A stretch of 64,000 bases of DNA from Thermococcus barophilus MP (lineage in GTDB: Archaea > Methanobacteriota_B > Thermococci > Thermococcales > Thermococcaceae): NCBI RefSeq assembly GCF_000151105.2, contig NC_014804.1:248001-312000 (forward strand), given 5' to 3'. Numbering within the stretch: position 1 is the stretch's first letter; each line of letters starts with the position of its first letter. This document shows positions 49,265 through 60,378 of the stretch, one piece after another. The position numbers and the translations under genes were made by a program. Below the pieces are notes generated by a model. The model worked only from the letters and a program-made list of their open reading frames with translations, was not told the origin of the DNA and did no database searches.

Positions 49265-50362
49265 ATGAAACTTTTAATAGTCGGAAACGGCATTGCCGGA
49301 GTCACGCTGGCAAAAGAGCTGTCTAATGACTTCGATATTACAATAATCGACAGAGAAAACATACCATATTACAGCAAGCCCATGCTGAGTCATTACATAG
49401 CTGGTTTTGTTGATGAAAAGTCGCTCTTTCCCTATTCTTTTGACTGGTATGAAAAGAAGAGCATAGAGCTGAAGCTGGGAGCTGACGCCAAGGTGATAGA
49501 CAGGGCAAGGAAAAGGGTGATGACCTCAGAGGGAGAACTTGACTATGACATTCTTGTTCTTGCAACGGGAGCAAGGGCAAGGGAGCCCATGGTAGAAGGC
49601 AGGGAGCACTTAAATGTATTGAGAACACTTGAAGATGCAAGGGCAATAAAAGAGATCCTTGAGCGAGAAGGAGATGCAGTAATTCTGGGGGGAGGATTTA
49701 TAGCACTTGAGCTTGCTGGAAATCTTGCGAAAGCAGGTTATGATGTAAAGCTCATTCACAGGAGGAATACCCTCCTTGGTCTCGATGAAGAGCTGAGCAG
49801 AATATTGAAAAAAAGGCTTGAAGATGTGGGGGTTGAGTTTTATCTCAACACGAATTTGGTAAAGGCTGACGAGCGTGGAATCCTTACAGATAGAGGATAC
49901 GTAGAAGGGAAGCTCAAAGTGTGTGCTTTTGGTATAATACCAAATAGAGAAATTGCAGTGAGGAGTGGAATACACGCTGGAAGGGGTATTCTGATAGATG
50001 ATAGATTCAGAACATCCGCAAAAGACATCTATGCAATAGGGGACTGTGCAGAGTACAACGGCATAATTTGCGGAACTGCCAGAGCTTCCATGGAACATGC
50101 AAAGGTTCTGGCAAACCTGCTTCGTGGAAGAGATGACAAGTATGACTTTGAATTTCGTTCCTCAATTTTCAAGCTTGCCGGCTTTTCCGTGGCAATCATT
50201 GGTAAGATTGGTGGTTATGGCAGATGGATAGATGAAAACATCAAACTCTTCATTGATCATCGAGAGAAAATCATTGGGGCAGTAGTTCTTGACGACTTAA
50301 GATCCGCTACGAAGCTTGAGAAACTCATCAAGAGTGGGGCAGAGTATAATGACCTCCTGTGA
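49265..50362 (+). CDS. NAD(P)H:rubredoxin oxidoreductase (NROR)
   Basis: A 365-aa FAD enzyme: '[19 protein letters not shown]' (FAD dinucleotide fold), '[29 protein letters not shown]' (NAD(P)H fold) and '[11 protein letters not shown]' (second FAD motif). It has no redox-active disulfide, as in P. furiosus NROR of nearly the same length. It passes electrons from NAD(P)H to rubredoxin, feeding superoxide reductase, rubrerythrin and the flavodiiron protein, which are all in this window. Confidence 0.94.
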
Positions 50363-50448: not shown

Positions 50449-50964
50449 ATGGTTGTGAAAAGGGAAATGACAAAGAAGTTTTTGAGCGAAGCCTATGCGG
50501 GTGAAAGCCAGGCACACATGAGGTACATGATTTTTGCGGAGGTTGCCGAAAAAGAGGGATTCCCAAACATCGCAAAGCTTTTTAGAGCCATTGCATTTGC
50601 CGAACTGGTTCATGCAAGGAACCATCTTAAAGCCCTTGGAGGAGTGAAAGACACCGTGGAGAACCTGCAAGTGGCAATAGATGGGGAAACTTTCGAAGTT
50701 GAGGAAATGTACCCAGCATACAAAGCTGTCGCGGAATTACAAGGAGAGAACGAAGCTGTTAGGAGCACCACATATGCCTTAGAGGCGGAGAAAATACATG
50801 CTGAGCTATACAGAAAAGCCAAGGAGCTTGCAAAAGAGAAGAAAGATATAGAGATTAAGAAGGTTTACATATGCCCTGTCTGTGGTTATACGGCGGTTGA
50901 TGAAGCCCCGGAGAAGTGTCCTGTCTGCGGTGTTCCAAAAGAGAAGTTTGTTGTCTTCGAATGA
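50449..50964 (+). CDS. rbr: rubrerythrin
   Basis: A 171-aa peroxidase with an N-terminal diiron bundle ('AYAGESQAHMRYMIFAEVAE', 'IAFAELVHARNH', 'EEMYPAYKAVAELQGE', 'YALEAEKIHAELY') and a C-terminal rubredoxin domain (CPVCGY and CPVCGV). It reduces H2O2 with electrons from rubredoxin. The sequence is very close to P. furiosus rubrerythrin as I remember it. First gene of the rbr - rubredoxin - sor group. Confidence 0.97.
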   Translation: MVVKREMTKKFLSEAYAGESQAHMRYMIFAEVAEKEGFPNIAKLFRAIAFAELVHARNHLKALGGVKDTVENLQVAIDGETFEVEEMYPAYKAVAELQGENEAVRSTTYALEAEKIHAELYRKAKELAKEKKDIEIKKVYICPVCGYTAVDEAPEKCPVCGVPKEKFVVFE

Positions 50965-51046: not shown

Positions 51047-51208
51047 ATGGCAAAGTGGAAGTGTTTAGTCTGTGGATACATATATGATGAAGAGGAAGGA
51101 GATCCAGATGCCGGTATAGCCCCGGGAACAAAATTTGAAGAGCTCCCAGATGACTGGGTTTGTCCCCTCTGCGGAGCCGGAAAAGACATGTTTGAGAAAA
51201 TAGAATGA
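51047..51208 (+). CDS. rubredoxin
   Basis: A 53-aa one-iron electron carrier: [11 protein letters not shown] with C-x2-C at residues 6-9 and '[15 protein letters not shown]' with the second C-x2-C. It is the shared electron donor for superoxide reductase, rubrerythrin and flavodiiron protein. GAGTGAGGT precedes the ATG. The stop is followed at once by GAGGTGAT for sor, so the two genes are one unit. Confidence 0.97.
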
Positions 51209-51218
51209 GGTGATGGAG

Positions 51219-51566
51219 ATGCTGAGCAAAACTATAGCCTCTGGAGACTGGAAGGGAGAAAAACATGTTCCGGTTATAGAGTACAAGAAGGATGGAGATT
51301 TGCTTGAGATTGAGGTTAGCGTTGGAAAGGAAATTCCTCATCCCAATACACCGGAGCACCACATAGCTTGGATTGAGCTCTACTTCCACCCCGAGGGGGA
51401 GAAGTTCCCAGTTATGGTTGGTAGAGTAGCCTTTACAAACCATGGGGATCCCCTAACAGAGCCAAAGGCAAAGTTCTACATTAGAACGAGCAAGAAGGGC
51501 AAGCTCTATGCTTTGAGCTACTGCAACATTCACGGACTCTGGGAAAACAGTGTTGACGTTGAGTGA
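51219..51566 (+). CDS. sorA: superoxide reductase (neelaredoxin type)
   Basis: A 115-aa one-iron enzyme reducing superoxide to H2O2 without making O2. Iron ligands lie in 'GEKHVPVIEY' (Glu, Lys and His), 'HPNTPEHHIAWIEL' (His residues) and 'ALSYCNIHGLWEN' (Cys and His). It lacks the desulforedoxin domain. ATG 51219 is chosen since the GAGGTGAT just upstream fits and the N-terminus then matches P. furiosus SOR. It is somewhat shorter than that protein (124 aa) because a central loop is missing. Confidence 0.96.
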   Translation: MLSKTIASGDWKGEKHVPVIEYKKDGDLLEIEVSVGKEIPHPNTPEHHIAWIELYFHPEGEKFPVMVGRVAFTNHGDPLTEPKAKFYIRTSKKGKLYALSYCNIHGLWENSVDVE

Positions 51567-51642: not shown

Positions 51643-51996
51643 ATGAAAATTTACAGTCCAGACAGGGAGTATCCTCCAGAATATCGTGAGGTTCTTGAGG
51701 AGCTTAAGAAAATCATTGATCCTGTAACTGGTGGAGACATACTTGATTCTGGTGTCGTTGCTGGCTTAGAGGTTACCAAAGATACCTTGAAGATATGGCT
51801 CAGGTTTGAAAGCCACGCTGAGTACAACATCATAGGGGAGTCCCCAATAGCGTACTCAAAGATAATCGGTGACATAATGGAGCGTTTTGCACTTGTTAAA
51901 TTTGATAATGTTTATGTTTACGATCTGGGAAACAAAATAGTAGGGAAATTTGAAAATAAAGGCAGATATAAGCCAGAGGATCTAAGAGAGGGCTAA
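51643..51996 (+). CDS. MIP18/DUF59-family Fe-S cluster assembly protein
   Basis: A 117-aa protein with the DUF59 fold: 'EVLEELKKIIDPVTGGDILDSGVVAGLEVTKDTLKIWLRF' shows the conserved D-P-x-T/E and D-x-G-V blocks. DUF59 proteins help deliver Fe-S clusters. GGTGAAGAG precedes the ATG. It is followed 3 nt later by a second DUF59 gene and then by a ferritin-like gene, so iron-sulfur and iron handling are linked in one operon. Confidence 0.86.
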   Translation: MKIYSPDREYPPEYREVLEELKKIIDPVTGGDILDSGVVAGLEVTKDTLKIWLRFESHAEYNIIGESPIAYSKIIGDIMERFALVKFDNVYVYDLGNKIVGKFENKGRYKPEDLREG

Positions 51997-51999
51997 GTA

Positions 52000-52347
52000 A
52001 TGCGGCTGTTTGGCTTTTTAAAGCGAAAGGATACAAGAGATGTGAAGAGAAAGGAGCTACCCGAGGATGTTAAGCGCGTTGTTGAAATACTAAAGAGAGT
52101 CAGGGACCCGGAAACGGATCTAAATATAGTTGATGAGGGTCTTGTTTATGGAGTTACGATTGAAGGCAAAAAAGCCCAGATTTTTCTCTTCATGGCTCGA
52201 TCAACTCCAGAGTGTCATTTCTGTCAGATGATGGCAATAAACGTGCAGAGAAGAATTCTCAGGGATATAATCAATGTGTTAAAACAGGAAGGCTTTAATA
52301 AGGTGGAAGTATACAATGAAATTGGACTGCTGCTTGAGGAGGGGTAA
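52000..52347 (+). CDS. MIP18/DUF59-family Fe-S cluster assembly protein (second copy, with CxxC)
   Basis: A 115-aa protein: 'ILKRVRDPETDLNIVDEGLVYGVTIEGKKAQIFLFM' is the DUF59 core (D-P-E-T, D-x-G-L-V), followed by 'PECHFCQMM', a CxxC that the first copy lacks. The first 25 residues are basic. It may hold or deliver an Fe-S cluster. Middle gene of DUF59-DUF59-ferritin-like. Confidence 0.87.
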   Translation: MRLFGFLKRKDTRDVKRKELPEDVKRVVEILKRVRDPETDLNIVDEGLVYGVTIEGKKAQIFLFMARSTPECHFCQMMAINVQRRILRDIINVLKQEGFNKVEVYNEIGLLLEEG

Positions 52348-52350
52348 TTT

Positions 52351-52875
52351 ATGAGTTTGCAGGAGTTTGAAGAAAGATATCCTTTTGAAAAAATTAAGAA
52401 CTTTTCTCTTAAGGAGCTGCTGGAGATGGCTATAACTTCTGAAATTGGAGCAAGAGAGTTCTATGAAAGTCTTGCCAGCAATATTGAAATTAAACCCTTA
52501 AAGGAGAAAATAAGCTGGCTTGCGGAAGAAGAAAGAAAGCATGAAGAGCTTCTTAGAAGGATACATTCCGAAATGTTTTCTGGAGAGGAGATTAAAACTC
52601 CAAAAGAACACATAGGACCTGAGCTGAAGCCAGTTGCAAAGAAACTCCAAGATGTGAAGGATATAATAGATCTCATCAGGTGGGCTATGAAAGCTGAGGA
52701 AATGGCGGCTCAATTCTATGAGGAGCTTGAAAAGCTTGTTGAGGGTGAAGAGAAGAAAAAACTGATGAGATATTTAAGTGACATGGAGAAGAGCCATTAC
52801 TATGCACTAAGAGCTGAATACGAGCTCCTCTTAGACTGGTCCATGTACAGCCAGATGATGCATATTGGTCCATGA
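52351..52875 (+). CDS. ferritin-like (erythrin type) diiron protein
   Basis: A 174-aa protein with two diiron repeats: 'SEIGAREFYESLASN' / 'LAEEERKHEELLRR' and 'KAEEMAAQFYEELEK' / 'SDMEKSHYYALRAEYEL'. GAGGAGGGG precedes the ATG. It follows two DUF59 genes within 3 nt, so it probably works with them in protecting or repairing iron centres. Confidence 0.85.
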   Translation: MSLQEFEERYPFEKIKNFSLKELLEMAITSEIGAREFYESLASNIEIKPLKEKISWLAEEERKHEELLRRIHSEMFSGEEIKTPKEHIGPELKPVAKKLQDVKDIIDLIRWAMKAEEMAAQFYEELEKLVEGEEKKKLMRYLSDMEKSHYYALRAEYELLLDWSMYSQMMHIGP

Positions 52876-52922
52876 TAAAAAGAATTAAAAGCAGAAAACA
52901 GCAAGAAAAAGGAATGAAGAGG

Positions 52923-53225
52923 TCACAGTTCGACCTTTATGCCGGTCTCTTCCTCAACTTCCTCGAAGCCTTCTTTCATGTACTTCACGAGCTCCTCATC
53001 AACTTCAAGGAGCGCCGCCAGGAACTCCCCAACGTGCTCCTTCTCCTCGTTGGCAACGTCGTAGAAGATGTGCTTTATCCTCTCGTCCTCTATGAGCTCC
53101 GCCAGCTGTTCGTAGAAGCTTATCGCATCTAACTCAGCCTCGATGGCCCAGCGCAAAGCTTGGGCTATTTCCCTCTTTGAGAGGGGCTTCTCTCTTCCCA
53201 GGAGATAGGGCTTTTCAGCGAGCAT
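52923..53225 (-). CDS. stand-alone EncFtn-like (encapsulated ferritin type) protein
   Basis: A 100-aa two-helix ferritin: metal-binding 'AIEAELDAISFYEQLAEL' and 'NEEKEHVGEFLAALL' (ExxH), then 'EGFEEVEEETG'. This is the pattern of EncFtn and of the N-terminal domain that in P. furiosus is fused to the encapsulin shell. Here the gene stops right after that domain and no shell gene follows. GGTGAT precedes ATG 53225. G+C is clearly higher than in the left neighbour. As EncFtn proteins need a ring of dimers, it may work alone or join a shell encoded elsewhere. Confidence 0.82.
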   Translation of the reverse strand: MLAEKPYLLGREKPLSKREIAQALRWAIEAELDAISFYEQLAELIEDERIKHIFYDVANEEKEHVGEFLAALLEVDEELVKYMKEGFEEVEEETGIKVEL

Positions 53226-53267
53226 GGTATCACCACAAGATAATACGTCCGGAGGTTAATAACCCTT

Positions 53268-53819
53268 TCACCTCAGGAACTTCGAGACGAAGGGGCTCTC
53301 CCCGGGTTTTGTTCTCCTGAAGTGGCCGCTCGGCTTGCCGGTGAGGAGTTCCTCAAACCATGCCTCGTGCTCGATCTCCTCATGGAGTATTGCCAGAGCC
53401 AGGTCGTACGTCCTCGGGTCTTTCCCAAAGGTGTACTTGCATATCTCGGTGTACACTCCAACGGCACAGCGCTCTGCCTCAAGGAGGACCTTAAGGATGT
53501 TCTCAACGGTCGGCTCCTCGGGGAGGTAAGCGTCGCGGCACCAGGCCATCTTGGAGAAGTCAACGATGTCCCTCGGGAGCTCACCGCCAAGCTCGTATAT
53601 CCTCGGGACTAAAGCTTCAAAGTGGTTCCTGTCCTCAAGGCGTGCATCTTCGATTATCTCCTTTATCGTCTCGCCTTCCATGCCAGCAGCATGGTTCCTC
53701 AAGACGGTATAGTAGTAATAGGTCGTAAACTCCGCGGCTGCAGCCTTCAGCAGCATATCCAAAAGTTTTTCCACGTCTATTCCAGCTTTTTCAACAAGTC
53801 TTCGGTTGTGTTCAGACAC
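53268..53819 (-). CDS. Dps-like thioferritin (DPSL)
   Basis: A 183-aa Dps-like protein that forms a 12-mer cage and uses H2O2 to oxidise iron. Diiron ligands are seen around E30, E62/H66 ('EDRNHFEAL') and '[14 protein letters not shown]'. Cysteines at 94 and 118 fit the conserved thiol pair of DPSL/thioferritins. The sequence is very close to P. furiosus DPSL as I remember it. G+C is high (38/60 in 53281-53340). GGTGA precedes ATG 53819. It is probably co-transcribed with the EncFtn-like gene 42 nt downstream and divergent from the Fur-family regulator. Confidence 0.94.
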
Positions 53820-53879
53820 ATGTTTTCACCGAAAACTGTTGGAATTTCTACTTAATAAATCTTTCTATCTCGAAATTGA

Positions 53880-53891
53880 TTCTAATTAGAA
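53880..53891. promoter_or_regulatory. TTCTAATTAGAA palindrome in the fur/DPSL divergent promoter
   Basis: A perfect 12-bp palindrome lies between the DPSL gene (start 53819) and the Fur-family gene (start 53924). It directly touches a TATA element on the plus strand (ACTTATAAAC, about 53894-53903), whose distance to ATG 53924 suggests a leaderless message. An operator for the neighbouring Fur/PerR-like protein is the simplest reading. Confidence 0.55.
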
Positions 53892-53923
53892 AAACTTATA
53901 AACTTCACAGCATAATCTGAACC

Positions 53924-54301
53924 ATGTGGAAGAAAAATGCCCTTAAAAGGCTCAAAGAAAAAGGTTACAAGCTCACACCTCAGAGGCTCAAATTGGTGGA
54001 GATACTCGATAGGATCGGGAGCGAACACCCGTCTCTTAAAGAGGTTCTCGATGAAATCAGGGAGGAATTTCCGACCGTGAGCTTCTCAACTCTGTACTCC
54101 AACGTCCTTACTTTGAAAGAGCTCGGCCTGCTCGAACTCTTTTCTCTGGATGGAGAGACGAGGGTTGAGCTCAACACTGAACCCCATATCAACCTGATAA
54201 GTGGTGGTAAAGTCATTGACTTCAACGACCCCGAGATAATTGAAAGAATAAGGGAGAAAACGGGCAGAAAAGTTAAGCTCGTCAACGTTATCCTTGATTA
54301 A
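53924..54301 (+). CDS. Fur/PerR-family metalloregulator, short form
   Basis: A 125-aa protein: winged helix 'GYKLTPQRLKLVEILD...HPSLKEVLDEI...FPTVSFSTLYSNVLTLKELGLLELF' followed by a short dimer domain ('RVELNTEPHINLI'). The CxxC structural zinc sites and most His ligands of typical Fur are missing, so metal or peroxide sensing must differ. Divergent from DPSL, which it probably controls. It overlaps the convergent ferritin-like gene by 4 nt. P. furiosus has a similar gene next to its DPSL, as I recall. Confidence 0.85.
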   Translation: MWKKNALKRLKEKGYKLTPQRLKLVEILDRIGSEHPSLKEVLDEIREEFPTVSFSTLYSNVLTLKELGLLELFSLDGETRVELNTEPHINLISGGKVIDFNDPEIIERIREKTGRKVKLVNVILD

Positions 54302-54780
54302 TCCACCTCAAGGCTGAAGTCCTGGTAGTCCATCCAGATCCCGGTCTTCATCACCGAGTCGTATTGAGCTTTGAGCAGTTCATAGTGTGCCTCTTCTATT
54401 TTTGCCAATCTGCGGAAAAGTTCTCTTACCTTCTTATCCTCAGCTTCTTCAGCTGCTTTTTCATAAAATTCCCAAGTTGCCTTCTCCTGTTGCATTCCAA
54501 GCTCAACTGCTTTAATCTCACTCAATGTTCCTTCATACTTTGGAGTCAGCTCTTCTACAATTTCCCTTATGGCAGCTGGTATTTCTCCTGTTTCTGCAAC
54601 CTTCCGGATCAGATTCTCCTCAAATATGTCCCAATGCTCTGCCTCTTCCCTTGCCAGAAAAAGGAACATGTTCTTAGCTTTTTCATTTTTTGCTTTTGTT
54701 GCCATTTGGATGTAAAATCTGAGCTCTGCCTTTTCAATTTCCAGTGCAGATGCCAGTGCCTGCAACTCATTAATTTTCAT
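54298..54780 (-). CDS. ferritin-like (erythrin type) diiron protein
   Basis: A 160-aa protein: 'EIEKAELRFYIQMATKA' / 'AREEAEHWDIFEENL' and 'QQEKATWEFYEKAAEEA' / 'AKIEEAHYELLKAQYDS' give both diiron half-sites. GGTGGTGTT precedes ATG 54780. It is convergent with the Fur-family gene. A rubrerythrin-like peroxidase without rubredoxin domain; substrate not proven. Confidence 0.85.
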   Translation of the reverse strand: MKINELQALASALEIEKAELRFYIQMATKAKNEKAKNMFLFLAREEAEHWDIFEENLIRKVAETGEIPAAIREIVEELTPKYEGTLSEIKAVELGMQQEKATWEFYEKAAEEAEDKKVRELFRRLAKIEEAHYELLKAQYDSVMKTGIWMDYQDFSLEVD

Positions 54781-54834
54781 AACACCACCAAAATTTATTA
54801 GGGTCTTGGGCTATTAATTGTTTTGGTGAAGAAA

Positions 54835-55365
54835 ATGGAGATTGTAAAGGTTCAAAATCCTGTGGAACTTAAGGACAAGCTTTTGGAGTTCGTCTTTAGG
54901 GTTTATAGGGGAACAAATGGTGCCTATCCGGCACTTGAGTGGGTGGAAAAAAAGCCGAGTCAAGATGATTTTAAAGGTTTTAAGAAGGTTTATGAACCTT
55001 TTCTTGAATTCAGGCTTGAAAAAGAGTTTGATGAGCTTTACATTCTCAAGGAAGGGGAAAAGATAGTCGGCACAGTTGCACTTGTATACAATCTTAAAGG
55101 CAAAGATGTGTGGTGGGTACCTGAGGATATAAAAAGCGAAGAAACAGGCTTGATAGAGTTCTTCATGGTCGATCCGGAATATAGGGGCAAGGGATACGGA
55201 TCAAAGCTTTTAGAGTTCGCTGTTGAGAGGCTGAAGGAGCTTGGAAAAGATGTTTATATAATTACATTCCCGCACTTGGAAGCATATTCTTACTATCTCA
55301 GGAAGGGCTTTGTTAAGGTTATGGACTACAAGGAGTTCGTGGTTTTAAAATTGCCCACCTCCTGA
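54835..55365 (+). CDS. GNAT family N-acetyltransferase
   Basis: A 176-aa protein: 'LIEFFMVDPEYRGKGYGSKLLEFAVERLKELG' contains the acetyl-CoA-binding R/Q-x-x-G-x-G motif. Substrate unknown. ATG 54835 has GGTGA upstream. The 190-bp gap that follows (55366-55555) has only the KaiC-gene promoter. Confidence 0.88.
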   Translation: MEIVKVQNPVELKDKLLEFVFRVYRGTNGAYPALEWVEKKPSQDDFKGFKKVYEPFLEFRLEKEFDELYILKEGEKIVGTVALVYNLKGKDVWWVPEDIKSEETGLIEFFMVDPEYRGKGYGSKLLEFAVERLKELGKDVYIITFPHLEAYSYYLRKGFVKVMDYKEFVVLKLPTS

Positions 55366-55507
55366 AGTTTAAGAACTGTTTTGTTGTTTTCACTTTTATG
55401 GCATGTTGTGGACTATATATCCAGCAAAAATGCCTTATTTCTCCCGTAATTCCTTTGAAAGTATCCCCAACTGTAAAGAATAATTTTTCATTCTATGCCG
55501 CATAAAG

Positions 55508-55517
55508 TTTATATAAG
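55508..55517 (+). promoter_or_regulatory. TATA box of the KaiC-like operon
   Basis: TTTATATAAG lies 39-48 bp before ATG 55556, with a ribosome binding site AGGAGGGA between them. No other promoter-like sequence is seen before lysO, which supports one transcript for the four genes. Confidence 0.5.
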
Positions 55518-55555
55518 TCAAAAAGGAAAAACGGATGTAGATAGGAGGGAATAAC

Positions 55556-56251
55556 ATGACTCGCATCTCTACTGGAGTGAAAGGTCTTGATAAAATGCTT
55601 AATGGTGGGCTTATACCTGGAAGGGCTTATCTTGTTAAAGGCGGTCCCGGGAGTGGAAAGACAACTCTCTGTATTCACTTCCTCATGGAGGGAGTTAAGA
55701 GGGGAGAGAAAGTACTTTATATAACCCTTGAAGAGCCGATTGACATTTTGAAAGAGGATATGAGAGAGATGGGCTTTGATGTTGACAATCCCCTCTTTGT
55801 AGGCATCGATGCCACCCCTGTGAAGGAGAAGAGGAGCTTCTTCGAGGGAATGCACTATGAGGAATTTGCAAAAGGCTTTAATGAGCTTATAAGAGCCATA
55901 AAAGAGAGGCTTGAAGGGGAGGAATTCACGAGGGTTGTTATTGATCCCATCACGATGATTAAGCTGACGATGAAGGATGAGCTTGAGTATAGAAGGACTT
56001 TTCTTGGGTTTTTAAAGGAGATTGCCAAGTACAACGTAACCCTGCTGATAACCTCTGAGATCTATGAAATGGGGATTGAGGACTATCTTGTCAGTGGTGT
56101 CATAGAGCTGAGAACATTTGAAGTCGGAGGAAAAACTGTCAGGGGCATTAAGGTGGTTAAGTTCAGGGGAAGCGACTTTGATGAAACCATAAGACCCTAC
56201 AAGATAACCGGCAACGGGATTGAGGTGTACAGCGAAGAGACGATCATGTGA
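55556..56251 (+). CDS. KaiC-like RecA-superfamily ATPase
   Basis: A 231-aa single-domain KaiC/RadA-like protein: 'STGVKGLDKMLNGGLIPGRAYLVKGGPGSGKTTL' with Walker A at residues 29-37, 'VLYITLEEP' (catalytic Glu pair) and Walker B 'RVVIDPITM'. The C-terminus has 'VRGIKVVKFRGSDFDE', typical of archaeal KaiC. Such proteins are proposed as signalling hubs in archaea. It heads an operon with a degenerate KaiC-like protein and two membrane proteins. Confidence 0.9.
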   Translation: MTRISTGVKGLDKMLNGGLIPGRAYLVKGGPGSGKTTLCIHFLMEGVKRGEKVLYITLEEPIDILKEDMREMGFDVDNPLFVGIDATPVKEKRSFFEGMHYEEFAKGFNELIRAIKERLEGEEFTRVVIDPITMIKLTMKDELEYRRTFLGFLKEIAKYNVTLLITSEIYEMGIEDYLVSGVIELRTFEVGGKTVRGIKVVKFRGSDFDETIRPYKITGNGIEVYSEETIM

Positions 56252-56262
56252 GAGTGGTTTGA

Positions 56263-56865
56263 ATGAAGTTTGGCATCCCCAAGCTTGATGAACTACTTGG
56301 GGAAATTCCTGAGGGAAGTGTTGTGCTTATCGAGACACTCGGAAATCTTGGGGAGGAGATAGTGGTAGAAGCGCTCAAAGAAAACAGTGACAAAAGCATT
56401 GCATTTGTAACAAAGAGGCTTAAAGAAGAGTTTGAGAAGATCCCCGAGCTCAAAAATATGAAATACATAGTGTTTGGAGAGGACTTTGCCCCTCAAGAGC
56501 TCTTCAAGATAACCTATAAGCTGAGGCAGATTTTGAGCGGCTACCTCGTTGGACTTTTCTTCCTCCAGCCTTTGCTTGTTTTCCATCCGCAGGAAACGGT
56601 CTATAAGTTCTTTTCTGAGGTGTCATCAATAACCCACGACAACAAGCTTGTGCTCATTGCAATACTTGACAAGAGGCTTGTAGATGAAAGAACCCTTGCA
56701 ATGTTTGAAAATGTGTCAACCCATGTGATTGAAATTGCTGAAGAGCTTGAAAAGTTTAGGGTCATAAGGGGGATACGCGTTAAAAAATCGCCTAAGGGAT
56801 CTTCGGGGTTTTATGAGCTGATAATTAAGGATGGAAAGATCACCATAGGTGAGCCTCTTGGATGA
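56263..56865 (+). CDS. degenerate KaiC-like protein without P-loop
   Basis: A 200-aa protein whose start 'FGIPKLDELLGEIPEGSVVLIETLGNLGEEI' aligns by eye to the KaiC start, but the Walker A position reads E-T-L-G-N-L-G-E-E (about residues 24-32) with no GxGKT. The middle has 'DNKLVLIAILDKRLVDERTL' where Walker B would lie, and the end 'RVIRGIRVKKSPKGSSGFYELII' matches the KaiC C-terminal strand. It is probably a non-catalytic partner of the ATPase 11 nt upstream. It overlaps the next gene by 17 nt. Confidence 0.78.
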   Translation: MKFGIPKLDELLGEIPEGSVVLIETLGNLGEEIVVEALKENSDKSIAFVTKRLKEEFEKIPELKNMKYIVFGEDFAPQELFKITYKLRQILSGYLVGLFFLQPLLVFHPQETVYKFFSEVSSITHDNKLVLIAILDKRLVDERTLAMFENVSTHVIEIAEELEKFRVIRGIRVKKSPKGSSGFYELIIKDGKITIGEPLG

Positions 56866-57475
56866 GTATCTCCTAATTAGGGGTTTGGTAAGCCTAATAT
56901 TGATACTCAGCGTTTTCTACACTGGAATGGTATTCAAGATGCTTGGGCAGTATATGGAAAAAGGTAAACGGGTTGTTTTTGTCCAGATGATCGGTTCCCT
57001 TCTTGTTGTTTTGGCATCCGTTGTTATGGGTCTTGCTGGAAATTCTCTAAAAAGCGTGTTTGCTATTTTTGCAGGTATTATAGGAGCATTTTTGATAATT
57101 CATCCGCTGTTTAGGTACAGGCTTATAAAGTTCTCTAAGATAAACGTGACACAGGTTGTGCTGGTGCTTCTTTCAAGTGCCTTCGGACACTTTATGGGAC
57201 TTCACGGCATAGCAGTTCTCAAGACGACTGGCATTCTCTCTCTCCTTTTGCTGGTTCAGTCTTTGAGGTCAATAAAACTTGCTGATCCATTGTTGAAAAT
57301 CCTGCTTGATGTATCTCTGTGGCTTCTTGTTGTATATGCATGGCTGTACCATCTGGCTATTAGATACATTGGTTCATGCAACTACTACCTGATATATCTC
57401 ATATACTTCACAGCACTCCTCCTGTGGTTCTTCTCGGCGGTTATTACCTATGAACATCTCAGGAGGTGGCTGTAG
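56849..57475 (+). CDS. membrane protein with about seven transmembrane helices (KaiC operon)
   Basis: A 208-aa hydrophobic protein; by eye the segments starting 'LVSLILILSVFYTGM', 'VFVQMIGSLLVVLASVV', 'VFAIFAGIIGAFLII', 'VTQVVLVLLSSAFG', 'TGILSLLLLVQSL', 'LLDVSLWLLVVYAWLY' and 'YLIYFTALLLWFFSA' are helices. It ends with basic residues. Starts possible at GTG 56849 or TTG 56858 (the latter well placed behind AGGTGAG). No family recognised. It could be the sensor or anchor for the KaiC-like proteins. Confidence 0.75.
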   Translation: MSLLDEYLLIRGLVSLILILSVFYTGMVFKMLGQYMEKGKRVVFVQMIGSLLVVLASVVMGLAGNSLKSVFAIFAGIIGAFLIIHPLFRYRLIKFSKINVTQVVLVLLSSAFGHFMGLHGIAVLKTTGILSLLLLVQSLRSIKLADPLLKILLDVSLWLLVVYAWLYHLAIRYIGSCNYYLIYLIYFTALLLWFFSAVITYEHLRRWL

Positions 57476-58029
57476 TGATCTGCCCCATAATAAGGGAGGT
57501 TGTTGAGATAGTGATTGGATTCTCCGTTATTTCCCTATATTTCTCCAAAAGGTTCCCTTTAATGTACAAATCTCACCTCGCGCTCGCTATAGGGGCGTTC
57601 TTCCTATCAGAGCCTATTCTGGATTATCTTTTTGGCATGGACTCAACGATTCTTGAGTTTATCGGTGCATTGCTCCTCCTCTGGGTTGTGGAGAGGTTCA
57701 TCGCAGTAAATAAAAACTCACGGATTAGTTTTTACACCCTGATAATTGGAGGCTTTGCTGGTGTGCTCGGGTTTGCGCTGAATAAAAATCTGGCTTATTT
57801 CCATATCGGCACGCTAACGGCTTTTGCCTTTATCTCCCTGAGGATGGGAAAAGCGGTTGAAGTTGTCAGATGGGAGCACAGGGATGTATTCCTAATCTCA
57901 TCCATTTTCCTCTTTGCTGGGGCGATAGCATTTGCTTCAGCTCTTTTTATGTTGAGCCTTTTCCTATACTACGGGGGCATCTTCATATTCATGCTTGCTG
58001 TGATGGAGATAATGCATGGGATAATGTAA
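57475..58029 (+). CDS. second multi-pass membrane protein of the KaiC operon
   Basis: A 184-aa protein with six to seven helices ('VVEIVIGFSVISLYF', 'LALAIGAFFLSEPI', 'IGALLLLWVVERF', 'LIIGGFAGVLGFA', 'IGTLTAFAFISLR', then a long hydrophobic end). GTG 57475 uses the AGGAGGTGG at the end of the previous gene and shares one base with its stop, so translation is coupled. No family recognised. Size and layout similar to the preceding protein suggest a pair. Confidence 0.75.
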   Translation: MICPIIREVVEIVIGFSVISLYFSKRFPLMYKSHLALAIGAFFLSEPILDYLFGMDSTILEFIGALLLLWVVERFIAVNKNSRISFYTLIIGGFAGVLGFALNKNLAYFHIGTLTAFAFISLRMGKAVEVVRWEHRDVFLISSIFLFAGAIAFASALFMLSLFLYYGGIFIFMLAVMEIMHGIM

Positions 58030-58045
58030 TTTGAAACGTTAAGTT
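58029..58045 (+). promoter_or_regulatory. SurR-like sequence upstream of lysO
   Basis: ATT-TGA-AAC-GTTAA-GTT differs in one base from the GTT-N3-AAC-N5-GTT extended site described for the Pyrococcus redox regulator SurR. It starts at the stop of the second membrane protein and is 28 bp before ATG 58074. A possible internal promoter region. Confidence 0.35.
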
Positions 58046-58073
58046 TATTATCTCAAAGGCGCAATGAGAGCTC

Positions 58074-58319
58074 ATGAACATATTCATCCCTTTAATAGCT
58101 GGTATCGTGTTTGGGTACATATTCAGGGAGAGAATTAAAATAAACCTTGACAAGCCTATGAGCATAGCCTTACTGCTGCTGATTTTCTTTATGGGGGTTG
58201 AGGCTGGGAGAGTCAAAATAAATGCCGCTGAGCTGTTTGCAACATCAGTGACATTTGCCGTGCTGACGATCTTGGGAAGCTTGCTGTTTGCAGTGCTCTT
58301 AGGGGGCAGGCTGAGATGA
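58074..58319 (+). CDS. LysO-like transporter, N-terminal part encoded separately
   Basis: An 81-aa protein with about three membrane helices, 'IPLIAGIVFGYIFRE', 'MSIALLLLIFFMGVEAG' and 'FAVLTILGSLLFAVLLGG'. It corresponds to the first part of the LysO (YbjE, DUF340) lysine exporter, which is one protein of about 300 aa in E. coli. It overlaps the gene for the second part by 4 nt. Splitting of LysO into two genes is known in archaea and bacteria, so this is probably not a broken gene. Confidence 0.82.
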   Translation: MNIFIPLIAGIVFGYIFRERIKINLDKPMSIALLLLIFFMGVEAGRVKINAAELFATSVTFAVLTILGSLLFAVLLGGRLR

Positions 58320-58897
58320 GCTTTCTGTACTTGGTTCTCGTTGCACTGTCTGCCGGCATTTTGGTTGGTAAGTACACGGGCTTTCAGTTCGGCAACTCCT
58401 ATGAGATCATGCTGTACGCTTTGATCTTCATCATAGGGGTCGATCTTGGGAAGAGCAGAGGGCTTAAGGAGATCAGAGAGCTTGGAAAGATTGCATTGAT
58501 CCTGCCCCTTGCCACTGTAGTCGGCTCTCTGCTGGGAGGACTTCTGGCATCGTTTCTGCTCAATGTCCCTGTGAAATGGGCATTAGCGATTTCAGCGGGC
58601 TTTGGGTGGTATTCGTTGACTGGTCCTCTGCTGGCACAATATTCCCCTGTCTATGGTGTAGTTGGCTTCCTGGCAAACCTTACGAGAGAGATTTTGACCA
58701 TCCTCTTCTACCCAGTCGCCATTAGGAAGATCCCAAAGGAGCTTGCGGTTTCAATGGGGGGTGCAACAACCATGGACTCTACACTGCCAGTTATAGTTAA
58801 ATTCGGGGGGAGTGAAATTACGGTGATAGCTTTTGTCCACGGCTTCATCCTGACAGCGATAGCTCCATTTTTAATTCCCCTTATACTTCAGCTTTGA
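58316..58897 (+). CDS. lysO: LysO-like transporter, C-terminal part
   Basis: A 193-aa membrane protein with LysO hallmarks 'ISAGFGWYSLTGPLLAQY' and 'AVSMGGATTMDSTLPVIVKFGG'. The start ATG overlaps the end of the N-terminal part. Together the two form a probable lysine (or related amino acid) exporter. The final Gln-Leu end is short. The link with the KaiC operon upstream is by position only. Confidence 0.88.
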   Translation: MSFLYLVLVALSAGILVGKYTGFQFGNSYEIMLYALIFIIGVDLGKSRGLKEIRELGKIALILPLATVVGSLLGGLLASFLLNVPVKWALAISAGFGWYSLTGPLLAQYSPVYGVVGFLANLTREILTILFYPVAIRKIPKELAVSMGGATTMDSTLPVIVKFGGSEITVIAFVHGFILTAIAPFLIPLILQL

Positions 58898-58906
58898 ACC
58901 ATTAAA

Positions 58907-58921
58907 TTTATAAGTTCGAAC
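58907..58921 (+). promoter_or_regulatory. promoter of the 59-aa HTH gene: TATA and GTTCGAAC palindrome
   Basis: TTTATAAG (58907-58914) overlaps the 8-bp palindrome GTTCGAAC (58914-58921). An AGTTC half-copy follows at 58926-58930. The arrangement resembles the peroxiredoxin and rubrerythrin promoters. Confidence 0.45.
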
Positions 58922-58957
58922 ATATTAGTTCTATTTGCAAACTATGGGGGGATTGAA

Positions 58958-59137
58958 ATGAGCAATGAGGAAGTTGTTTTGGAGGTCATGAAAAAAGCCG
59001 GAAAGCCGCTCAAAAGCGCCGAAATTGCTGAGATGACTGGCATACCGAAGAAAGAAGTTGATAAGATAATCAAAAAGCTCAAAAAGGAAGGAAAGATAGT
59101 ATCTCCAAAGCGCTGCTATTATGCTCCAGCTGAGTGA
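58958..59137 (+). CDS. 59-aa winged-helix DNA-binding protein
   Basis: A small HTH protein: 'VLEVMKKAGKPLKSAEIAEMTGIPKKEVDKIIKKLKKEGKIVSP' spans the whole wing-helix core, ending 'RCYYAPAE'. GGGGGGAT precedes ATG 58958. Proteins of this size are common in Sulfolobus and Thermococcales as small regulators. Its 3' end touches the convergent ferritin-like gene. Candidate regulator that could read the GTTCGAAC motif in its own promoter (inference). Confidence 0.8.
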   Translation: MSNEEVVLEVMKKAGKPLKSAEIAEMTGIPKKEVDKIIKKLKKEGKIVSPKRCYYAPAE

Positions 59138-59698
59138 TCACGCTCTCTTTTTATCTTTCATGAGCTCTTTAATGAGCTCCTGGAAGTCCTGTTCTGCTTT
59201 CGCCTTCTCGTAAGTTTCATATTCCTGCTTTAAGAATTCGTAATGATCATGCTCATCCTTTGCAAGTTCAATAAAGAGACCCTTATACTCTGGGTTTGGT
59301 ATGTGCTTCGACACGTACAGATAAACCTCTTCAGCAAGTCTCTCAGACTTCATCGCAACTTCCAGAATGTCGAGATAATCTCTAAGCGTCTTGATCTTAA
59401 ATTCCCTGTCCTTAAAAACATTGGTCCAGCTTTCAAAGGGGACATCAGAAGGTTCCTCATTTGGATATAAGGTGTTAAAAATTTCTGTGACTTTCTTATC
59501 GTGGGAAATTTCCACCTCCATAAACTGCCTGAACTTCTCCTTAAGATATCTGCTTGGGACGTTCTCATAAAGAAAAGTGTACAAGTCGGTTGCATCTTTT
59601 TCTCCTTTGATAATGTAACTTAGAATATCCTTAAGTGGCATTTTTGAGACTTCTCTCAGAACTTCCTTAACCTTCTCTTCAATCTCAGCCTTCTTCAT
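59138..59698 (-). CDS. ferritin-like (erythrin type) diiron protein
   Basis: A 186-aa protein with diiron sets 'KGEKDATDLYTFLYEN' / 'FMEVEISHDKKVTEIF' and 'KSERLAEEVYLYVSKH' / 'LAKDEHDHYEFLKQEYE'. The start at 59698 is well supported by GGAGGT 4 nt upstream; the frame is open further to 59740. It lies between the small HTH gene and another ferritin-like gene. Confidence 0.84.
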   Translation of the reverse strand: MKKAEIEEKVKEVLREVSKMPLKDILSYIIKGEKDATDLYTFLYENVPSRYLKEKFRQFMEVEISHDKKVTEIFNTLYPNEEPSDVPFESWTNVFKDREFKIKTLRDYLDILEVAMKSERLAEEVYLYVSKHIPNPEYKGLFIELAKDEHDHYEFLKQEYETYEKAKAEQDFQELIKELMKDKKRA

Positions 59699-59814
59699 GT
59701 AAACCTCCAAAGGGCTCTCCATCTTCATACACCGATACATGTAGCTCTTTTCACTTAAAAAACATTTCCTTTCACTTTTTGCAGAATTTTCAAAAACAAA
59801 GAGAATTTGAACGT

Positions 59815-60378
59815 TCAGTTTCCATATTTCTGGGCGAGCTTCTTCAGCAGCTTTTCATGCTGCTTTTCATTGTTTTCTGTGCTCTCCATGAGCGTCTTTA
59901 AGATTGGGTGAGTCACTTTCTCCTTGAGCTTGCCATATAAAGTCGCCATTTCCTCTTGGAGCCTCAGGTATTCCTTTATGATGTCCCTTATTTCGTTCAG
60001 CTTTTCTTCGGGAATCACAGCAGTTTCTGGGAATTCTTTGAAGTACTCCTCAAGGATTTCTTCTGGAGGAATTCTTGCACCTAACGTTCCGAAGTCGAGG
60101 GGCATAGCTATCATCGGCACCCCAGGTATTAGAACGGTGTTGTCCGCTATTTCCTCCCCTTCAAATTCTTCGATCAGCTTTAGAGCATCTTCGTAAGATT
60201 TCTTCACAGCCTCCAGCATGTTTTTGTGGAGTATTGTGTCTATGGTGATTCTGAGGAGAAGATTTTTTATATCAGCATATTCTGGCTCCTTCAGCTTTTT
60301 TAGGCTTTTTCGGTATTCTTTTTCAGCCTTCTCCTCGAGCTTTCTTGTTTTTTCAACTATTCCTATGAGTCCCTCCAT
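59815..60378 (-). CDS. degenerate ferritin-like helical protein
   Basis: A 187-aa all-helical protein. The second half keeps 'LQEEMATLYGKLKEKV' and 'TENNEKQHEKLLKKL' (E-x6-Y-like and ExxH), whereas the first half has 'KAEKEYRKSL' and 'TIDTILHKNML' with D-x-x-x-H in place of ExxH. A Pro/Gly-rich loop 'LIPGVPMIAMPLDFGTLGARIPPE' sits in the middle, as if it were an insertion between the two hairpins. It is possibly a derived erythrin with one half-site. GGTGGGAGGA precedes ATG 60378. Confidence 0.6.
   Translation of the reverse strand: MEGLIGIVEKTRKLEEKAEKEYRKSLKKLKEPEYADIKNLLLRITIDTILHKNMLEAVKKSYEDALKLIEEFEGEEIADNTVLIPGVPMIAMPLDFGTLGARIPPEEILEEYFKEFPETAVIPEEKLNEIRDIIKEYLRLQEEMATLYGKLKEKVTHPILKTLMESTENNEKQHEKLLKKLAQKYGN

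Follow-up and report, generated by a model that had tools for sequence, protein, structure and literature searches.

KaiC-type ATPases acting together with inactivated KaiC homologues (iKaiC) have been proposed as signalling hubs of archaea (Makarova, Galperin and Koonin, 2017, mBio e01959-17, as cited in PMC5847659 and PMC6393860), and the DUF835 domain is listed among the iKaiC domains (PMC5847659). The hub role of the KaiC-type ATPases is still a computational proposal. Thermococci, moreover, encode very few two-component systems (PMC5847659). Other described relatives are circadian KaiC and ArlH (FlaH) of the archaellum, a KaiC-fold protein found at the membrane with other ATPases.

Here we describe a four-gene locus that we propose to be a variant of the already published KaiC/iKaiC hub concept. 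Like the hubs, it brings an active KaiC together with an inactivated homologue; as far as the hubs are portrayed in the citing papers, it differs from them in the fixed pairing of the two KaiC-like proteins (KA and KB), in two dedicated membrane proteins with seven transmembrane helices each (7-TM; MA and MB), and in its location near superoxide reductase (SOR). The papers found on SOR and KaiC in the open literature, where DUF835 turns up in one paper, do not describe this locus, and the 2017 hub paper may list the gene set. We put the chance that the four genes encode a membrane-anchored module by which the Thermococcaceae sense oxidative stress or redox state, with putative contacts, disulfide, signal and output, at roughly one half. 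As a probable oxidative-stress sensor or switch, such a module could serve archaea in place of two-component systems. With its active KaiC, the dead but conserved homologue, two membrane proteins of unassigned family and oxidative stress as a concrete candidate for the signal, the locus offers a compact and genetically tractable test of the hub proposal.

The window, by which we mean the whole stretch of DNA that was analysed (64,000 nucleotides), belongs to a 2.06 Mb genome of the Thermococcaceae. The positions of the four genes and of their surroundings are collected in Table 1. KA and KB are separated by 11 nucleotides, KB and MA overlap by 17 and MA and MB by 10, and with such spacing translation of the four genes is probably coupled. 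The TATA element TTTATATA is kept in four to five congeneric loci, in which the surrounding upstream DNA has largely diverged. The sequence-only reading had described four tightly coupled genes behind one TATA box, and its coordinates, frames and packing are all correct; the TATA box, moreover, is conserved among congeners. A sigma-70 style promoter scan was discarded as not meaningful in an archaeal host. From the SOR genes to the operon start there is no SurR-type GTTnnnAAC motif except inside other genes; this motif is about as frequent in the window as expected by chance, and its closest copy lies downstream of the operon, at 58235. Directly 3' of the module in this genus is LysO, a lysine exporter, present in the window as two adjacent open reading frames of 81 and 193 residues (58074-58897).

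Table 1. Genes of the module, its predicted promoter and the upstream redox island, in window coordinates.
Feature	Position	Strand	Description	Basis
NROR	49265-50362	+	island gene upstream of module	
Rubrerythrin	50449-50964	+	island gene upstream of module	
Rubredoxin	51047-51208	+	island gene upstream of module	
Superoxide reductase (SOR)	51210-51566	+	island gene upstream of module	
Two DUF59 proteins	51643-52347	+	island genes upstream of module	
Rubrerythrin-like	52351-52875	+	island gene upstream of module	
TATA box with preceding AAAG (BRE-like)	~55508-55515	+	single predicted operon promoter	sequence, congener conservation
KA	55556-56251	+	single-domain KaiC-family ATPase, 231 aa	PF06745, KaiC structures, position upstream of KB
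KB	56263-56865	+	P-loop-less, KaiC-derived protein, 200 aa, DUF835-related	homologue alignment, hhalign
MA	56849-57475	+	7-TM membrane protein, 208 aa	AlphaFold, positive-inside charge, Cys177
MB	57466-58029	+	7-TM membrane protein, 187 aa	AlphaFold, Cys6, profile matches

KA is a member of the KaiC ATPase family (PF06745, 166.9 bits with a cut-off of 26.6) and aligns over its whole domain with solved KaiC structures (E 3e-39). Walker A (GGPGSGKTT), the EE pair (YITLEEP) and Walker B (VVIDP) are all intact, which together with the family score bears out the earlier description of KA as a KaiC-like ATPase with full Walker motifs. The nucleotide motifs and the KFRGS motif are conserved in an alignment of 29 KA homologues. 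KA and circadian KaiC are homologous over 225 residues and have the Walker motifs and the K-x-R motif in common. Unlike circadian KaiC, however, KA has one domain only, and the alignment has a gap in KA where the second KaiC domain carries its Ser/Thr autophosphorylation residues (IST), so that a clock-type phosphorylation cycle is unlikely. Most genomes of one large genus also have solitary relatives of KA, at 52-61% identity.

Judged by its sequence, KB is an inactivated KaiC, a KaiC-derived domain that has lost its nucleotide-binding residues, with individual homology statistics that are modest. Its start motif, MKxGIPKLDxLLG, is kept with respect to STGVKGLDKMLNGG of KA, and its end motif, RGIRVKKSP, corresponds to RGIKVVKFRGS, but it lacks a P-loop and an EE pair, as well as the Walker B Asp and the Arg of KFRGS, a pattern shared by all 34 homologues. 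The P-loop position reads ETLGNLGEE, as had been claimed for this second KaiC-like protein. GKT/S is absent from all 34 aligned KB homologues, and the loss is therefore ancestral and maintained, rather than the result of recent decay. KB scores 17.9 bits with DUF835 (PF05763), below the gathering threshold of 33.1, and is thus related to this family without being filed as a member; DUF835 is matched by 22 of 24 KB homologues at E ≤ 0.1 (best 3.6e-7). Profile alignment with hhalign relates KB to the DUF835 domain with P 4.7e-5, and places it collinear with KA over 171 columns with P 0.024, a statistic that for KA alone is weak.

We searched 94 genomes of Thermococcaceae and 21 others of the phylum (115 in total) for the gene set. 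KB was aligned from 34 loci in the Thermococcaceae, and the 21 other genomes gave no full-length match to it. In 33 of the 34 loci the gene immediately before KB is KA, a count that takes in KA genes that are broken or truncated (L081, L084, L092) or run off the contig (L079). MA, always followed by an MB-type protein, comes after KB in 24 loci, and KA and KB stand alone in 10. The MB profile finds 24 matches in 23 genomes, all of them in loci with KB and MA, while MA-family proteins are present in 61 of the 115 genomes and in many also occur without KaiC. A profile search with a closer subset of KB sequences returned seven loci, all from Thermococcus sp. or metagenome-assembled genomes of Thermococci. 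The conservation of gene order across the Thermococcaceae excludes a chance arrangement.

One genome of the same genus (G088) keeps a remnant of the module upstream of LysO, as in congeners (L093:139-1069), in which the KA gene is interrupted, the middle of KB is deleted, and both membrane-protein genes are missing. With the caution due to a draft that is 75% complete, the module looks as if it was lost as a unit from the orthologous place. This co-loss, the adjacency of KA and KB, and the restriction of MB to KB-MA loci support the reading as a sensing module. Separate occurrence of the four genes in relatives had been named as grounds against the proposal, and it is found in part, in the lone KA-KB pairs and in MA without KaiC, but the matches of the MB profile are always with KB and MA (24/24). 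Since MA occurs without KA, KB and MB, and KA-KB without MA and MB, physical coupling of the components is not obligatory.

Two loci depart from the usual arrangement. At L069:1-4908, the single exception to the adjacency of KA and KB, a copper-type P-ATPase, a thioredoxin-like protein, KB, an MA-type protein and an MB-like protein (c41) follow in a row without KA, possibly a metal or redox version of the module. At L084:6347-8319 (genome G028), KA is in pieces and KB is joined in frame to MA (408 aa). We rejected this join as proof of contact, because it arises through a change of frame and KA is broken in the same locus; it probably comes from frameshifts, whether through decay or through a sequencing error, rather than from a functional fusion.

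The redox genes of Table 1 are part of a larger island in the window, which on both sides of the module also holds a peroxiredoxin, a flavodiiron-type protein, a Fur/PerR-type regulator and several ferritin-like proteins, with some of the gene names resting on sequence motifs alone. At least six ferritin-like or rubrerythrin-like genes surround the module at 52351-60378, on both strands. A tblastn search found SOR no more than 5.3 kb from KB in 13 of the 24 loci with MA, in eight of them as the gene immediately before KA, and any island gene (SOR, rubrerythrin and others) near the module in 15, all these loci being related by descent, so that the counts are not independent trials. Nine of the 24 loci have no redox neighbour; two of the nine are on contigs shorter than 5 kb. 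SOR is near none of the 10 KA-KB loci that are devoid of MA, six of which (L086, L088-L092) are near a Pyr_redox flavoenzyme of the CoA-disulfide-reductase/NADH-oxidase type.

MA copies that occur solo adjoin SOR in 20 of 23 loci, usually in the order NROR, rubrerythrin, SOR, MA, DUF59, DUF59, rubrerythrin-like. At L071, L073 and L083 the KaiC block has SOR on one side and a solo-type MA copy on the other. Proximity of the module to SOR in 13 of 24 loci and the position of solo MA beside SOR support redox sensing. The location in a redox-stress region, noted before from the sequence, thus rests on firmer ground than the sequence alone could provide, with 15 of 24 loci and the separate association of solo MA behind it. 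The place next to SOR also provides a first functional context for the MA membrane family, which about half of the searched Thermococcaceae genomes encode. Independently of the module, an MA-family 7-TM protein is a regular part of the Thermococcus SOR cluster, between SOR and the DUF59 pair and without KaiC (L165-L182, L095-L097).

MA and MB were modelled with AlphaFold from alignments of 26 and 22 homologues, respectively. The models have seven helices each (pLDDT 85.4 for MA and 88.2 for MB), and the Lys/Arg counts indicate an outside N terminus for 26/26 MA and 22/22 MB sequences, a pattern of N-out and C-in. No match to any Pfam, NCBIfam or PDB sequence profile was obtained for MA or MB, and family scans of the 26 and 22 homologues gave matches of single members only, at E > 0.02. 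The fold search returned nothing at E ≤ 0.001 for either protein (best E 0.47 and 0.76, TM-score at most 0.45). The lists are headed by 7-TM rhodopsins, receptors and alkaline ceramidase, none of them significant. Rhodopsins and GPCR-type receptors share with MA and MB the seven helices and the outside N terminus, but with matches at E 0.47 and above we rejected homology to them. Of the earlier view of MA and MB as twin proteins of about 200 residues with six to seven helices, matching no known family, the multi-pass nature and the absence of a family stand; the predicted count is seven in each, and profile comparison gives no support for an origin of the two by duplication. Nor are they, as far as the Pfam, NCBIfam and PDB-sequence scans reach, unrelated known transporters, an outcome that would have spoken against the sensor proposal.

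An effector rather than a sensor would be expected if MA, with MB, were a membrane enzyme, a transporter or an electron-transfer part of superoxide reduction that KA-KB regulates or remodels through ATP hydrolysis. The solo MA genes, whose neighbours are SOR, rubredoxin, NROR and rubrerythrin and include no KaiC, fit this explanation, and the top fold match of MB, although not significant, is alkaline ceramidase. However, the His ligands of di-haem membrane cytochromes are not conserved (the best His column is occupied in 6/26 MA and 10/22 MB), MA and MB have few conserved polar residues of the sort found in active sites, no fold match falls below E 0.4, and the family scans are without a multi-member match. 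We consider this alternative rather unlikely, though worth keeping in mind.

It is a doubtful proposition that KA-KB is a general signalling pair whose position in the redox region reflects shared ancestry without shared function. Close relatives do share the position by descent, and the nine MA-bearing loci without redox genes lie elsewhere, beside unrelated genes. However, the module takes two different placements, either directly after SOR or about 3-5 kb further on, and solo MA has a link to SOR of its own; together these make a coincidence unlikely. Very improbable is a third explanation, in which MA and MB are assembled into a membrane machine by KA-KB, in the way that ArlH acts with the archaellum motor. 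In its favour is a weak similarity of KB, which has no P-loop, to ArlH; but the score is far below the threshold (20.3 bits with a cut-off of 215), and no secretion ATPase, pilin, prepilin peptidase, ArlJ-like or other archaellum or pilus gene was identified among the conserved neighbours.

A possible means of sensing is suggested by the cysteines of the two membrane proteins. Cys6, the only Cys of MB, immediately precedes helix 1 and is predicted to lie outside; it is present in 21 of 22 MB homologues and is usually their only Cys. Cys177 of MA lies in the predicted extracytoplasmic loop between helices 6 and 7, and is found in 21 of 22 KaiC-linked MA proteins versus 0 of 31 other rows of the MA family (solo, extra-copy and c41-paired). 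The MB-type partner c41 (L069, L071, L073) also has no N-terminal Cys, and L085, which lies inside the KaiC-linked clade, has lost both cysteines. Co-occurrence, joint loss and location on the same predicted side support Cys-based sensing. In the tree of MA, the KaiC-linked proteins form one clade (100/99) and the Cys state needs two changes. With only two changes, the covariation is statistically weak; we rejected it as statistical proof and treat it as a lead.

We hypothesize that a redox-related signal is sensed by a heteromeric 7-TM unit composed of MA and MB, plausibly via the single conserved extracytoplasmic Cys in each of them, by disulfide formation or by binding of a ligand or metal. 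KB, with its KaiC fold and lost ATP binding, would be the cytoplasmic adaptor on this unit and would engage KA, and the output would be the nucleotide-dependent oligomeric state of KA. The reading as a sensing module draws on the observed gene set, motifs, co-conservation, predicted topology, redox neighbourhood and Cys pattern; the nine MA-bearing loci without a redox neighbour and the weak Cys covariation count against it. Of the membrane-linked sensor module that was first suggested, the dead partner, the membrane proteins and the redox link are conserved, but the set is not indivisible, and the sensor role is still conjectural. A more specific version, in which Cys oxidation on MA and MB, by way of a disulfide or a shared metal site, acts through the dead KaiC on the active KaiC to control the SOR response, is improbable as a complete transmembrane redox receptor.

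Proteins with transmembrane (TM) helices and a DUF835 domain offer the closest parallel to the proposed arrangement. The same genome encodes eight true DUF835 proteins, seven of which have three or six to seven TM helices in the same chain. Like the module, the TM-DUF835 proteins of the Thermococcaceae couple a dead KaiC-like domain to a multi-pass membrane part; they do so in one chain, whereas in the module the parts are split between KB and MA/MB. As the counterpart, in one polypeptide, of KB together with a membrane sensor they support the sensor reading, and given the broad distribution of the 7TM-DUF835 type (93/94 genomes), KB with MA/MB looks like such a protein divided into separate chains, with an active KaiC as an addition. 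Aligned by hhalign to the TM part of 7TM-DUF835 proteins, MA gives P 0.092 and MB P 0.022, the latter over helices 2-3 only; this is suggestive for those two helices of MB but not significant. The 7TM-DUF835 proteins themselves, single chains of about 365 residues present in several copies per genome (L103-L105, L108-L137), look like a major uncharacterised receptor family of archaea.
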